A DNA stretch of 64,000 bases from NCBI RefSeq assembly GCF_022669055.1, contig NZ_JAJMLW010000001.1:620001-684000 (forward strand), written 5' to 3'. The notes below the pieces were generated by a model. The model worked only from the letters and a program-made list of their open reading frames with translations, had not been told where the DNA came from and did not search any database. Below are positions 32,230 to 38,538 of this stretch, one piece after another. This stretch comes from Adlercreutzia faecimuris (GTDB lineage Bacteria; Actinomycetota; Coriobacteriia; Coriobacteriales; Eggerthellaceae). The position numbers and the translations under genes were made by a program. The number at the start of each line of letters is the position of its first letter. The first letter of the stretch is position 1.

Positions 32230-32260
32230 TTGACCTCTTCGCTCATCCTGTTGCTATAAT
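32230..32260 (+). promoter_or_regulatory. Promoter of the M60 peptidase operon
   Basis: TTGACC (32230-32235) and TATAAT (32255-32260) are separated by 19 bases, about 100 bases before the GTG start. The spacing is slightly long, which may mean a weak or activated promoter. Confidence 0.55.
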
Positions 32261-32359
32261 GTTGCCGATGCCGGGCTCGGCTTGGGTTCGTGCACCTCTG
32301 GGGGAGGCGGCGGCCGGGCGGCCCGGGAAGCACCTTGCAAATGAGAGAGAGGTTGGGAA

Positions 32360-35300
32360 GTGAGACGGGTGACCGCATGCGTCACCGCGCTCTGCCTGGG
32401 GTTCTCGCTGTTCGGCGCGCCGGCCATCGCCGTCGCCGAGCCGCAGGACCAGGGCAGCCCGCAGGCGCAGCAGACCGAAACGCAGCTGGAAACGAACAAC
32501 GATGATCTTGCCGCCGGAAACCTGGAAGACCAACTGACCCCCGCCGACGCCGCGTCCGCCGCGGCCGCCGCGCCGGGGCCCGACGACGCCGCGGGGGCAG
32601 GCTCCCTCGAGGGCGCCGTCGTCGACGTGGAGCTCACGTCGTTCGTTCCGCGGGCCGCGCTGGCGGCCGACCTGACAGCACAACTGAATACCGAGGACGG
32701 CGCTCCCGTGGGGGAGCCGGTCGCCTTCGCGCCCAAGGCGTCGGCGGCCGCGACCGTCGCCGCGCTCGAGGCCGAGCAGGCCGCGCCCGTGTCCGCCGAC
32801 GCGCCGGCCGACCGCGTGACGGGCGCCTGCCCGTTCTTCGCGCACCTCGGCACGGTGCCCGCCGGCACCTACGTGCTCACCGTGCGCGGCGACGGCTTCG
32901 GCACGTTCAGCCAGCGCCTGGACCTGGCCGACGGCGACCGCGCCGTCCTCAAGCTGGTCGACAGCCTGATGGGCGGCCTGGACGCCGAGGCGGCCGGCGT
33001 GGGTCTGGCGCCCTACGGCGACTTCAACGGCAACGGCGAGGTGGGCTCCGGCGACGCAGGCCTGCTGGCCCGGGCCGTCGCGGCCGCGGCCGCCGGCCGC
33101 GACGCCGAGGCGCGCTTCGACGTGACCGGCGACGGCGCCGTCGACCTGGCCGACGTGCAGGCGCTCGCCGCCACGCTCGGGGCCGCCCGCGAGGGCGCCG
33201 GCGTCCAGGCGGCCGTGCGCCTGACCAAGGACGGCACCCAGATGGCCCCGGCCCTGGCCGCGGGCACCGCGCTGGCCGGCGACGCCGACCTGGCCAGCCT
33301 CTTCATCGACGACGGCGCCACGGTGGCGCTCGTCCCGGCTGACGGCCAGGAGATATCCGGCGCCGCGCCCGTCGAGGTGACGGTGGAGCCCAAGGGCGCC
33401 GAGCTGGCGGGCCTCACCATCCAGGCCCCCGTCGATGCCGAGGGCGCCCCGCGCGCCGGCAGCGTCATCGTCGAGCTGGCCGACGGCACCGGCCAGGAGA
33501 TCCCCTTCGCGGCCGAGGGCGTCCACGTCCTGCGCACGAGCGGCCTGGACGCCACGGGCACGGTCGAGGCCGAAAGCGGCCTGGTGGTCATCGACTTCGG
33601 CACGCGCGTGGCGGTGAAGAAGATCACCATCCGCATCACGGCCACCGCGTCCAACAAGCTGGCCGAGATCGCCACGGTCGAGTTCCTCAACGGCATGGAG
33701 GACCGCATCGCGCCGCCCGACCTCAACATCCCCCGCAACCTCGCGGCCACGGCCGGCGACAAGCGCTTCTCGCTGTCGTGGGACCCGCAGGTCAACGTCA
33801 CCGGCTACGAGGTGGAGGTGTCCCAGGGCGACGCGTCCGAGGTGCGCCCCTGCGTGCTGCCCATGCTGGAGGTGACCTCGCTTTCCACCGGGAAGCTGGC
33901 CAACGAGACCGACTACCAGGTGCGTGTGCGCTCCGTCAACGGCGACTGGCGCAGCCCCTGGGGCGACGCCGCCACCGTCACGCCCCGCGCGAGCAAGGCG
34001 CCGGCGGCCCCCGAGTACGTGAAGGTGGAGGGCGGCTACGGCGAGATCGCCGTGTCGTGGCGCCAGGCCGAAGACGCCGCGCGCTACACCCTGTACTACA
34101 AGGCCGAGGACGAGCCCTCGTTCCACTCCGTCGACGGCATCACCGACACCCGCTACACCGTGGGCGGCCTGCGCAACCGCACCCGCTACCTCGTGTACCT
34201 GACCGCCAGCAACGACTGCGGCACGTCCGGCCCGTCCACCCAGTACAGCGGCACCACCATCGACCGCACGGCGAAAGTGCCCTGGTACCGCCTCATCAAC
34301 CGCACCGTGCAGGACAGCTCCCTCGCGTCGCACATCGTCGACGTGACGGCTGCGCCGCACGACGCGTCCCGCGTGCCCGACTTCGAGCCGCGTCATCTGG
34401 TGGACGGCGACTACGACACCTACTTCTACTCCGCGCGCCACAACGACGGCTGGGGCAACGTGTCGGTCACCTTCGACGACGTCTACCGCATGAGCAGCCT
34501 GGCGCTGACCACCTACCTGGGCAACGGCTACTGCTCGATGCACGAGATTCGCGTGACGGTGGACGACGGCGCGGGCAACCGGGCCACCTATTCCTCGGCC
34601 AACGGCCTGACCTGGGCCGGTATCCCCGACACCCCGAACTCCGTCATGGTGAGCTTCCCCGCCTCGGACGCGAAGACCGTCGAGGTGACCTACTGCCGCG
34701 CCTACTGGGCGCCGGTCACCATCGCCGAGCTGGCCTTCTACGAGCACGACACCCTGGCCGACGACATCGCGGCGCTGTGGGCCGACGACCTGCACACCGT
34801 GCTGGCCGACGGCGCGACCCCCGAGGCCATCGCCAACCTGCGGGCCCGCGTCGAGGCGCCCGACCCCGCCTGCGGCGAGCTGCACCCGCGCCACGACCTG
34901 CTCGCGGCCGAGCTCGACAACGCCCAGGCCGTCCTCGAGGAGCGCGGGCTGCGCGCGCCAGTGGCCGTCGACCCGTCCGTCCGCGCCGCCGTCAACGCCA
35001 ACGTGGGCGGCCTCAACGCCTGGCAGCCGCTGGGCGTGGCCGCGAAGGCGGGCGACGAGGTGGCCGTCTACGTGGGCGGCGCCGGGGCCGCCGCCGGCTC
35101 CGCGACGCCGCTGCGCCTCATCGCCACCCAGTACCACTCCGAGGTGAACGCCTGGCAGAAGACGGTCGTCGGCACGCTCAAGGTGGGCATGAACACCGTC
35201 ACCATCCCCTCGCTCGTGTCGCTGGACGTGGAGAAGGGCGGCGCGCTCTACGTCGAGTACGTGTCGTCTGGCGCGCCGCGCTCCTACGCCGTGCGCGTGG

Positions 35301-37609
35301 TGGGCGGCGCCGACATCCCCGTGCTCGACCTGCACGGGGTGGGCGACGAGGCCGAGCGCCTCGCACGCTGCGCCGACTACGTGCGCGACCTGGACGAGGC
35401 CGTGGCCGCCCTGGAGGCGACCCACGCCGAGGCCGGGCACGCCTACGGCTACGACCCGCGCAACTGCATCGCCAACGCCACCGACGTGGTGGGCGACACC
35501 CTCATGTTCTCCGTCCCCGCCAGCCAGGTGCTGGCCGGCCTGGGGTCGGGTACCGTGGAGGAGCGCGCGGCCAAGGTGAGCCACGCGCTGGCCGAGGCCG
35601 ACGAGATGATGCACCTGTTCTACCAGCACAAGGGCCTGGGGAACCTCACCGCGGCCGAGCAGGAGCGCTTCGGCACGCGCAACGGGCTGCCCACGGCGCG
35701 GCAGAACATCCGCTACATGCGCATGTTCACCGGCGCGTTCATGTACGCCGGCGGCCTGCACATCGGCGTGGAGTGGGGCTCGACGGCCGGCCTGTGCAGC
35801 ACCCAGGGCGTCGCCTTCGATGATGAGGGCCGCTACCAGTCGGGCCACTACTACGGCTGGGGCATCTCCCACGAGATCGGCCACGAGATCAACCAGGGCG
35901 CCTACGCCATCGCCGAGGTGACGAACAACTACTACGCCCAGCTGGCCCAGGGGCAGGACACCAACGCCTCGGCGCGCTGGACCTACCCGGCGCTGTACCG
36001 GCGCGTGACCTCCGGCGTGAAGGGCGCGCCGGCGGGCAAGACGGGCATCGGCATCTACTGGCAGCTGCACCTGGCCTACGACCGGGGCTACAACTTCAAG
36101 ACCTACGACACCTACACCGAGCAGTTCGAGAACCTGTTCTTCGCCCGCGTCGACGCCTACGCCCGCAACCAGGCCATCGCGCCGAAGGCGGCGGAGGGCG
36201 GCGTGGCGCTCACCCTGGCCGGCGCGGACAAGGACAACGCGCTCATGCGGCTGGCCTGTGCGGCGGCCGAGCGCGACCTCATGGCGTACTTCGAGGCGTG
36301 GGGCCTCGCGCCCGACGCGGCCACGCGCGCCTATGCGGCGCAGTTCCCGGCCGAGGAGCGTCCCATCCAGTACATCAGCGACGACGCCCGCGCCTACCAG
36401 CTGGCCGGCGGCCGCTCCACGGCGGCGGCCACCACGGTGCGCGCGTCCGCGAGCCGCGAGCCGAACTCGCCCGACGTGGTGATAGCCCTCGCAGCCGAGG
36501 GCGCCGGCGAGGGGCTGCTGGGCTACGAGATCAGGCGCAACGGCGTGCCGGTGGCCTTCGTCGAGGCCGGTGAGGGCTCCTACACCGACACCATCGCCAC
36601 GGTGAACAACCGCGTCTTCACCTACGAGGTGTGTGGCGTAGACAAGCACCTCAACCGCACGCGGACGGTCACGCTGCCCGCGATGAAGGTGTCCCATGAC
36701 GGCACGCTCGACAAAGCCGGCTGGACGGCGACCACCACGCTGCGCGCGGCCGACGACGCCGTCGAGGCCGAACCGGACGGCGACTCCTGCGGGCTGCCCG
36801 CGTCGTCCGCCGTGGCCCGCGCCATCGACGGCGACGCGTCCACGGCGTTCGCGGGCGCGCTGCCTGCGGGGAGCGCGGAGCCCGCGTCGGTGACCGTCGG
36901 GTTCGGCGAGGAGCTGGCCGTGTGCGCGCTGCGCTACCGCGCCGGCTCGGCCGACGCCATCCGCGACTTCAAGGTGGAGGTGAGCAGCGACGGGGTGCGC
37001 TGGGCCTGCGTGCAGGAGGGCGCCTTCGAGCTGGACGCCGACGGTTGCGCCACCGTGTGGTTCAACCGCGAGGGCGACGGCTGGCTCTACACCTTCGACG
37101 CCTCCTACCTGCGCCTGACGGCGGTGGGGCAGGACGCGGCGTCGGTGGCCGAGCTGGACGTGCTCGGGCCGACGGGCGACGACGTGGACCTGCTGTCCAA
37201 CGGCGTGGGGCGCCTCGGTAGCGACCTGCGCATCGCCGAGGGCGACGTGGTGCCGGCCGGCTCGATGGTCGTCACCGGGTCGTACAAGGGCAACCCCGCC
37301 TACAACGCGCTCAAGCTCTACGACGGCGAGGGCGCGCTCATCCCCGGCACGCAGGTGTTCTTCGCCGACGTGCCCGCGCAGGGCGACCTGGGCGAGACGG
37401 CCGAGGGCCGTTGGCTGTACTACCTGACGCCCGACGAGCTGGCCCAGGTGAGGCAGCCCGCGTCGGTGCGGGCCGAGCTGTACCGCGTCGACGACGCGCA
37501 CAGCCTGGAAGGCGAGCGCCTGGTGGCCGACACACTGCCGGTGGAGGTGCCCGCCGCGCTGCCGACGGTGCAGTTCAACTTCGATCGCGTGACGATGAGG
37601 GAGGCATGA
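32360..37609 (+). CDS. Secreted M60-family metallopeptidase with dockerin, FN3 and F5/8C domains
   Basis: A 1749-residue exported protein. A signal peptide covers residues 1-27 (MRRVTACVTALCLGFSLFGA). After a disordered stretch and a small beta domain comes a type-I dockerin (about 221-278) with two complete calcium loops, DFNGNGEVGSGD (221-232) and DVTGDGAVDLAD (254-265). Two fibronectin-III domains lie at about 457-546 and 548-638 and an F5/8C-like domain at about 655-790. The M60 catalytic region carries HEIGHE at 1171-1176. A second F5/8C-like domain is near 1480-1610. M60 enzymes cleave mucin-type glycoproteins, with F5/8C-type modules binding glycans. There is no anchor motif, so display would depend on the dockerin. 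The GTG at 32360 follows GAGAGG. The stop overlaps the next start (ATGA), coupling it to a cohesin-like partner. Confidence 0.9.
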   Translation: MRRVTACVTALCLGFSLFGAPAIAVAEPQDQGSPQAQQTETQLETNNDDLAAGNLEDQLTPADAASAAAAAPGPDDAAGAGSLEGAVVDVELTSFVPRAALAADLTAQLNTEDGAPVGEPVAFAPKASAAATVAALEAEQAAPVSADAPADRVTGACPFFAHLGTVPAGTYVLTVRGDGFGTFSQRLDLADGDRAVLKLVDSLMGGLDAEAAGVGLAPYGDFNGNGEVGSGDAGLLARAVAAAAAGRDAEARFDVTGDGAVDLADVQALAATLGAAREGAGVQAAVRLTKDGTQMAPALAAGTALAGDADLASLFIDDGATVALVPADGQEISGAAPVEVTVEPKGAELAGLTIQAPVDAEGAPRAGSVIVELADGTGQEIPFAAEGVHVLRTSGLDATGTVEAESGLVVIDFGTRVAVKKITIRITATASNKLAEIATVEFLNGMEDRIAPPDLNIPRNLAATAGDKRFSLSWDPQVNVTGYEVEVSQGDASEVRPCVLPMLEVTSLSTGKLANETDYQVRVRSVNGDWRSPWGDAATVTPRASKAPAAPEYVKVEGGYGEIAVSWRQAEDAARYTLYYKAEDEPSFHSVDGITDTRYTVGGLRNRTRYLVYLTASNDCGTSGPSTQYSGTTIDRTAKVPWYRLINRTVQDSSLASHIVDVTAAPHDASRVPDFEPRHLVDGDYDTYFYSARHNDGWGNVSVTFDDVYRMSSLALTTYLGNGYCSMHEIRVTVDDGAGNRATYSSANGLTWAGIPDTPNSVMVSFPASDAKTVEVTYCRAYWAPVTIAELAFYEHDTLADDIAALWADDLHTVLADGATPEAIANLRARVEAPDPACGELHPRHDLLAAELDNAQAVLEERGLRAPVAVDPSVRAAVNANVGGLNAWQPLGVAAKAGDEVAVYVGGAGAAAGSATPLRLIATQYHSEVNAWQKTVVGTLKVGMNTVTIPSLVSLDVEKGGALYVEYVSSGAPRSYAVRVVGGADIPVLDLHGVGDEAERLARCADYVRDLDEAVAALEATHAEAGHAYGYDPRNCIANATDVVGDTLMFSVPASQVLAGLGSGTVEERAAKVSHALAEADEMMHLFYQHKGLGNLTAAEQERFGTRNGLPTARQNIRYMRMFTGAFMYAGGLHIGVEWGSTAGLCSTQGVAFDDEGRYQSGHYYGWGISHEIGHEINQGAYAIAEVTNNYYAQLAQGQDTNASARWTYPALYRRVTSGVKGAPAGKTGIGIYWQLHLAYDRGYNFKTYDTYTEQFENLFFARVDAYARNQAIAPKAAEGGVALTLAGADKDNALMRLACAAAERDLMAYFEAWGLAPDAATRAYAAQFPAEERPIQYISDDARAYQLAGGRSTAAATTVRASASREPNSPDVVIALAAEGAGEGLLGYEIRRNGVPVAFVEAGEGSYTDTIATVNNRVFTYEVCGVDKHLNRTRTVTLPAMKVSHDGTLDKAGWTATTTLRAADDAVEAEPDGDSCGLPASSAVARAIDGDASTAFAGALPAGSAEPASVTVGFGEELAVCALRYRAGSADAIRDFKVEVSSDGVRWACVQEGAFELDADGCATVWFNREGDGWLYTFDASYLRLTAVGQDAASVAELDVLGPTGDDVDLLSNGVGRLGSDLRIAEGDVVPAGSMVVTGSYKGNPAYNALKLYDGEGALIPGTQVFFADVPAQGDLGETAEGRWLYYLTPDELAQVRQPASVRAELYRVDDAHSLEGERLVADTLPVEVPAALPTVQFNFDRVTMREA

Positions 37610-38538
37610 TGAGAGGGCTTCATCAGACGAGGCGCGCGGGCCGCGCGGGCCTGGCCGGGCGGATGCTGGCGGCGGCGCTGCTGGCGACGCTGCTGCTGAC
37701 GCCGTGCGAGGCGTGGGCCGCGCCGGAGGACGGCGCCCGGGACGGCGGCGCGGCGGCTGCGGCCGGCGCAGGTGGCGCGACTGGCGCGGATGGCGGCGCT
37801 GGCGCGGACGCGGACGCCGGCGCGGGCGCCGGGTCGACGGCGGCGAGTGCGGGCGCGCCCTTGGGCGTGGCGTCGCTGGCCGTGGTCGACGGCGGCATCC
37901 CCGTCACGGTGACCGGGGCGGCGGGCGAGCGCTCGCTGCTGGTGCGCGTGGCGATCGAGGGCGCGGACGGCACCGAGGTGCGCGGGGCGGACTTCGCCTT
38001 CGACGACGCGCTCGAGGGCCGCGCCGTGGTGGCCGAGGCCGTCTACGAGGACGGCGTGATGACGCTGGTCGTGTCCGGGGGCGATGAGCCCCTGGCCGCG
38101 GCCGATGGCGACGGCGTGGTGCCCCTGGGCGTGCTGCGCGTCGAGTGCGCCGGCGCGTCGTCGCAGGTGGCCGTGACGGTCGAGCGCGTGGAGGCCGTGG
38201 ACGGCCGCTTCGCCGCGCGCGCGACGCCGGCCGGCGCCGTGGCGGGCCCCGTGACGCTGGCCGTGGCCGGCGAAGCGGCGCCCGGCGCAGGCGGCGGGGC
38301 CGGTGGAGCCGGCGGCGCGGGCGGGGGCTCGGGCGCCGTCGGCGGCGCCCCGGGTGGCGCGGACGGCGGGGCGTCGGCGGGCGCTGGCGCCGACGCGCCG
38401 GGCGCCTCCGATGGGGCCCCGGCGGCGGGGACGCTGCTCGCCCCGACCGGCGACGCGGCCCCACTGCTGGCCATCGCGATGTGCGTCGTGGTGCTGGCCG
38501 CCGTGGTGGTGCTGGTCATAGCCTGGCGCCGCCGGTAG
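37606..38538 (+). CDS. LAPTG-anchored surface protein with cohesin-like domain
   Basis: A 310-residue protein. A signal peptide (about 1-39, ending AWA) is followed by a Gly/Ala-rich spacer. One beta-rich domain at about 85-220 follows the cohesin pattern: extracellular beta strands, EVRGADFAFDDALEG where cohesins have LxGxxFxLxYD, and a late DGDGVVPLGVLRVE strand. A second Gly/Ala linker leads to LAPTGD, a hydrophobic helix and RRR, a class-E sortase (LAxTG) signal. The ATG overlaps the peptidase stop codon. The combination suggests a one-cohesin wall anchor for the dockerin peptidase. The cohesin call is by pattern only and must be tested by structure prediction. Confidence 0.68.
   Translation: MMRGLHQTRRAGRAGLAGRMLAAALLATLLLTPCEAWAAPEDGARDGGAAAAAGAGGATGADGGAGADADAGAGAGSTAASAGAPLGVASLAVVDGGIPVTVTGAAGERSLLVRVAIEGADGTEVRGADFAFDDALEGRAVVAEAVYEDGVMTLVVSGGDEPLAAADGDGVVPLGVLRVECAGASSQVAVTVERVEAVDGRFAARATPAGAVAGPVTLAVAGEAAPGAGGGAGGAGGAGGGSGAVGGAPGGADGGASAGAGADAPGASDGAPAAGTLLAPTGDAAPLLAIAMCVVVLAAVVVLVIAWRRR

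Follow-up and report, generated by a model that had tools for sequence, protein, structure and literature searches.

The window analysed here is a stretch of 64,000 nucleotides from Adlercreutzia faecimuris (Eggerthellaceae, Coriobacteriia, Actinomycetota), in which two adjacent plus-strand genes encode a secreted M60-family peptidase bearing a dockerin (gene 1) and a small surface protein with a beta domain and a sortase-type signal (gene 2). An earlier note on this DNA had given the exact span of the two genes and had reported their ATGA overlap, which we confirm. The features are as follows, in window positions.

32360-37609, plus strand: M60-family peptidase gene (gene 1); GTG start; 1749 aa with an N-terminal signal peptide and without a C-terminal anchor
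32597-32974, plus strand: X-like beta domain immediately N-terminal to the dockerin (residues about 80-205); sub-threshold CarboxypepD_reg match
33005-33190, plus strand: type I dockerin (residues about 216-277); PF00404 match, calcium loops at 33020-33055 and 33119-33154
33731-34255, plus strand: two fibronectin type III (FN3) domains (Pfam)
35711-36304, plus strand: Peptidase_M60 domain (Pfam); zinc motif HEIGH at 35870-35884, residue 1171
36812-37153, plus strand: F5/8 type C (CBM32-like) domain (Pfam)
37606-38538, plus strand: anchor gene (gene 2); 310 aa, ATG start, its start codon shares ATGA (37606-37609) with the stop codon of the peptidase gene
37870-38268, plus strand: cohesin-like beta domain (residues about 89-221), from AlphaFold and Foldseek; 49-member family alignment
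38437-38451, plus strand: LAPTG sortase-type signal (residues 278-282); a membrane segment and the RRR tail follow, up to 38535

Gene 1 is assigned to the M60 family by a PF13402 match of 38.2 bits (cut-off 25.8) together with its HExxH zinc motif, and the closest solved structures to its M60 region are F5/8-type-C-domain and Zmp glycopeptidase entries, known from C. perfringens. The product is a probable O-glycopeptidase of the mucin-cutting type; the earlier proposal of host glycoprotein cleavage is based on M60 homology with the Zmp glycopeptidases of C. perfringens. The nearest named relative among the matches is Enterorhabdus sp. P55, with a peptidase about 77-78% identical. An antisense open reading frame of 1752 aa (window 32243-37501, minus strand) overlaps the peptidase gene and is most likely an artefact of the high G+C content.

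The dockerin of gene 1 matches Dockerin_1 (PF00404) at residues 219-272 with 30.4 bits against a curated cut-off of 22.9, carries duplicated calcium-binding loops, and can be aligned to the C. thermocellum xylanase dockerin (PDB 2ccl/1ohz). Loop 1, DFNGNGEVGSGD, is canonical; the earlier description of two perfect loops is slightly generous because position 3 of loop 2, DVTGDGAVDLAD, is Thr. The genome-wide search for further dockerins that the note had proposed finds none besides this one. The X-like region before the dockerin keeps its position in homologues and matches CarboxypepD_reg below the curated cut-off; it may form an X-Doc arrangement, an X-type module followed by a dockerin. The peptidase, listed as locus L121, lacks a hydrophobic anchor at its C-terminus.

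The gene 2 protein begins with a signal peptide and a Gly/Ala-rich linker; the beta domain comes next, and another linker separates it from LAPTG, the membrane segment and the RRR tail. LAPTG has Ala where Pro is usual; the motif, the membrane segment, the basic tail and the genome's three sortase-family matches, of which one carries an internal stop codon, together mark a predicted sortase-anchored wall protein, as the note had read it.

Predicted fold of the beta domain

Sequence searches do not identify the beta domain as a cohesin. The gene 2 protein has no Pfam match, the cohesin profile PF00963 included, and only one of 49 members of the beta-domain family is matched by PF00963 at all, at a non-significant E of 0.073; NCBIfam and PDB sequence searches, the latter with single sequence and profile, likewise gave no cohesin call. 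Profile-profile comparison goes a little further: hhalign aligns the family with 30 canonical cohesins over 108 columns, at low probability (9%, E 0.0035 with alignment A4) but above the best of the decoys tried (E 0.0033 vs 0.043 with alignment A3; 0.0035 vs 0.017 with A4) and above the reversed profiles tried. This match weakly supports a relationship to cohesins and is not significant alone.

Structure prediction, the check that the earlier note had suggested, gives a clearer answer. An AlphaFold2 model from the 49-sequence alignment (pLDDT 87.2, pTM 0.82) was compared with the PDB by Foldseek, and cohesins fill ranks 1-13; among the 19 hits at E ≤ 1e-3, 17 are cohesins, with pilin and collagen-binding folds also present lower in the list. 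The outcome that the note had named as refuting, a predicted fold other than a cohesin, did not occur. The best match is the cohesin-like module 2jh2 of C. perfringens (E 9.3e-6, probability 1.00, TM 0.49-0.54). A previous model, built from 20 sequences, placed cohesins at ranks 1-25 with weaker E-values (best 2e-3), and these improved when the 49-sequence family alignment (A4) replaced the smaller one. We therefore regard a cohesin fold as supported by the model, not proven, because the TM-scores are only about 0.5; the pattern guessed by eye in the note thus finds backing in predicted fold and, weakly, in profile-profile comparison, but not in Pfam or PDB sequence searches.

Neither Pfam nor the beta-domain family profile finds another cohesin in the genome; the family profile detects exactly one cohesin-like domain, adjoining the dockerin-M60 gene. 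With one dockerin and one cohesin-like domain, the genome departs from a cellulosome or mucinolysome, where a multi-cohesin scaffoldin serves many dockerin enzymes.

Gene pairing and anchors across genomes

At Eggerthellaceae dockerin-M60 loci that can be read past their 3' end, the beta-domain gene comes next, and where a genome has two M60 copies, as in two cases, each copy has a separate partner. A less circular test used the beta-domain profile alone against 640 Bacillota genomes, 397 from Lachnospiraceae, the family of Blautia parvula, and 243 from the family of a rabbit-gut Clostridia MAG. The profile finds 44 places, 42 of them outside the loci that built it. At each of the 44, an M60 peptidase of the gene 1 family lies immediately upstream or is fused to the beta domain, and the dockerin is present wherever the contig includes the N-terminal part of the peptidase. 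The plug-and-socket gene pair recurs in dozens of gut bacteria of the Actinomycetota and Bacillota and, beyond the Coriobacteriia in which the note had considered it, is present in many Bacillota. This coupling, a strict one-to-one adjacency, is the strongest evidence obtained. Distances between cohesin-like domains also remain correlated with those between dockerins once the M60 distance is removed (partial rank r 0.29, n = 50 pairs, permutation p 0.0005), a weak supporting sign, as the partial Mantel test permutes related sequences.

At L018/L033 the M60 gene is split over two frames, and at L110 it is reduced to remnants, each beside an intact partner gene. Separately, three Eggerthellaceae genomes (G113, G034, G091; loci L104-L109) encode dockerin proteins, mostly with a C-terminal dockerin, that have no link to M60, and the family profile does not find the cohesin-like domain of gene 2 in these genomes.

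M60 peptidases that lack a dockerin serve as the control. We scanned 299 genomes of the window's own order with PF13402, of which 29 matched, and obtained 18 M60 loci in which the dockerin profile finds nothing; the fetched region around each of the 18 is also free of the beta-domain gene. Seventeen of these peptidases have their own C-terminal membrane segment and basic tail, the eighteenth (L086) being cut by a contig end, and an LPXTG-like motif precedes the segment in 15 of the 17: 13 match the pattern, and two, LTQTG in L096 and LTATG in L102, were recognised by eye. By contrast, Kyte-Doolittle analysis of the last 60 residues detects a C-terminal hydrophobic segment in no dockerin-M60 examined, the highest averages being 1.26 and 1.14 in two sets, compared with 1.68-2.89 in the anchored controls; the note's unanchored peptidase is thus borne out for gene 1 and its homologues alike. 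Since dockerin-M60s have no cis anchor and dockerin-less M60s bring their own, the dockerin and the neighbouring gene seem to take the place of a cis anchor.

A surface-display reading and its alternatives

We put at roughly 0.8 the probability that genes 1 and 2 form a dedicated cohesin-dockerin module for surface display, with one enzyme and one anchor, and we infer for it physical binding, calcium dependence, wall attachment and a substrate. The M60 peptidase would be exported free of any anchor, and its N-terminal X-like/dockerin region would dock, probably in a calcium-dependent manner, onto the cohesin-like domain of gene 2, itself held on the cell wall by sortase, presumably covalently, or by its membrane segment. 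The displayed enzyme would then cut O-glycosylated host proteins such as mucins, as its homology suggests. That a dockerin enzyme and a cohesin anchor make up the simplest display pair was the central proposal of the earlier note, and it draws support from the one-to-one adjacency, the cis anchors of dockerin-less M60s, and natural fusions.

The attachment ends of the partner proteins vary. Our list holds 67 partners, some of them the same gene fetched twice. A hydrophobic segment closes 49 of these, in most cases followed by a basic tail; the rest comprise three fused forms that end in a dockerin and others of further types. The L250 partner has choline-binding repeats (Pfam), which an automatic choline-binding pattern missed, and those of L251 and L255 resemble it by eye; several partners have a C-terminus without a recognised anchor. 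A loose automatic sortase-motif pattern was not used for motif counts. An anchoring adaptor would be expected to combine one socket domain with differing attachment ends in this way. We consider a broader proposal to be somewhat better than an even bet: that this is an undescribed, noncellulosomal, Pfam-invisible cohesin family dedicated to M60 glycopeptidases in two phyla and acting as an exchangeable adaptor, in which the enzyme keeps one dockerin and the partner carries whatever attachment the lineage uses, be it a sortase signal, a membrane segment, choline-binding repeats, or a second dockerin, which may even be part of a fusion with the enzyme. At two loci (L013:7369-9085 and L016:13431-15126) the partner ends right after PKTGM, without a membrane segment, and the next gene is sortase-like.

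The fused forms bring in the best-surviving alternative, an unlikely one. In three loci (L245:938-7027, L257:1550-6706, L259:4915-11208) the peptidase, the cohesin-like domain and a second, canonical-looking C-terminal dockerin form one chain, which ends there without a wall anchor; L245 and L259 hold the X-like/dockerin region, M60 and the cohesin-like domain together, and L257 is alike but cut at its 5' end. In such proteins the cohesin would not be needed as a separate anchor, and therefore the binding may serve another purpose: the N-terminal X-Doc and a C-terminal or separate cohesin could act as a clasp that draws the enzyme together, in a compact or ring-shaped complex, and so stabilises or regulates it, with anchoring as a secondary use. 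Pairing that is always one-to-one also speaks for such a clasp, but the 49 of 67 listed partners (some duplicates) with a terminal membrane segment fit a tether, and dockerin-less M60s bear their own anchor instead.

Less probable still is that gene 2 encodes an unrelated wall-anchored beta-sandwich accessory, for instance a substrate- or mucin-binding protein, that leaves the dockerin to serve another cohesin. The lack of a significant sequence match to cohesins and the pilin and collagen-binding folds further down the Foldseek list speak for such a protein, but cohesins occupy the first 13 ranks, the genome offers the dockerin no other cohesin by Pfam or family profile, and gene 2 homologues are found only with a dockerin-bearing M60. 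That two independent surface-protein genes are neighbours by chance is effectively refuted by the pairing counts: 44 of 44 places found by the beta domain alone, the Eggerthellaceae pairs, the two-copy genomes with their own partners, and the fusions.

Relation to described systems

Isolated dockerins and cohesins outside cellulosomes have so far mostly lacked a known partner or role, and the present pair, with one enzyme and one socket encoded by adjacent genes of gut commensals, is a simple testable case. It suggests how Eggerthellaceae and Lachnospiraceae keep a mucinase-type enzyme at their surface, and the family as a whole supplies small cohesin-dockerin pairs that may be orthogonal.

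The type II cohesin-XDockerin complexes of C. thermocellum, Acetivibrio and Ruminococcus flavefaciens resemble the proposed module in having a beta module immediately before the dockerin and a surface-anchored cohesin that holds it. In cellulosomes this interaction typically holds a scaffoldin, not a single enzyme, and the X-like module of gene 1 differs in being only a sub-threshold match. In the noncellulosomal cohesin (X82)-dockerin system of C. perfringens (structures 2jh2, 2vo8 and 2o4e; PMC12997984), single cohesins and dockerins are carried by secreted enzymes that act on host glycans. Among solved structures, the cohesin-like module of this system comes nearest to the gene 2 model, and among solved M60 proteins its Zmp-type glycopeptidases are nearest to gene 1. 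Its cohesins, however, sit on glycoside hydrolases and join enzymes together, whereas gene 2 encodes a small anchored protein dedicated to one neighbouring peptidase. The Limousia mucinolysome, a cohesin-dockerin assembly proposed for mucin degradation (PMC12997984, 2026), also has dockerin-bearing peptidases and one LPxTG-anchored cohesin protein, cSca5, but relies on multi-cohesin scaffoldins and many dockerin proteins where the genome of the window has one dockerin and one cohesin-like domain; the present pair occurs in Actinomycetota as well as Bacillota, and Pfam does not recognise its cohesin-like family.

For the peptidases themselves, the survey of M60-like/PF13402 proteins by Nakjang et al. 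2012 (PMC3267712) describes the same combination of an HExxH M60 domain with CBM32/FN3, counts two dockerin-bearing members among 415, lists an Eggerthella lenta member, and draws Clostridium members with a question mark for the anchor; unlike the present analysis, it describes neither a partner protein nor the exchange of a cis anchor for a dockerin, and the word cohesin is absent. Text searches of the open-access literature, with subscription papers mostly outside their scope, returned no paper on a cohesin-dockerin M60 pair, and a one-to-one, Pfam-invisible cohesin with exchangeable anchors appears to be new. The M60 family also includes three homologues that have lost HExxH (L113:4362-10106, L115:5942-11536, L246:4446-9791) but retain the dockerin and a partner gene of their own, with an intact M60 copy elsewhere in the same genome (G109, G032, G923); these could be binding proteins.
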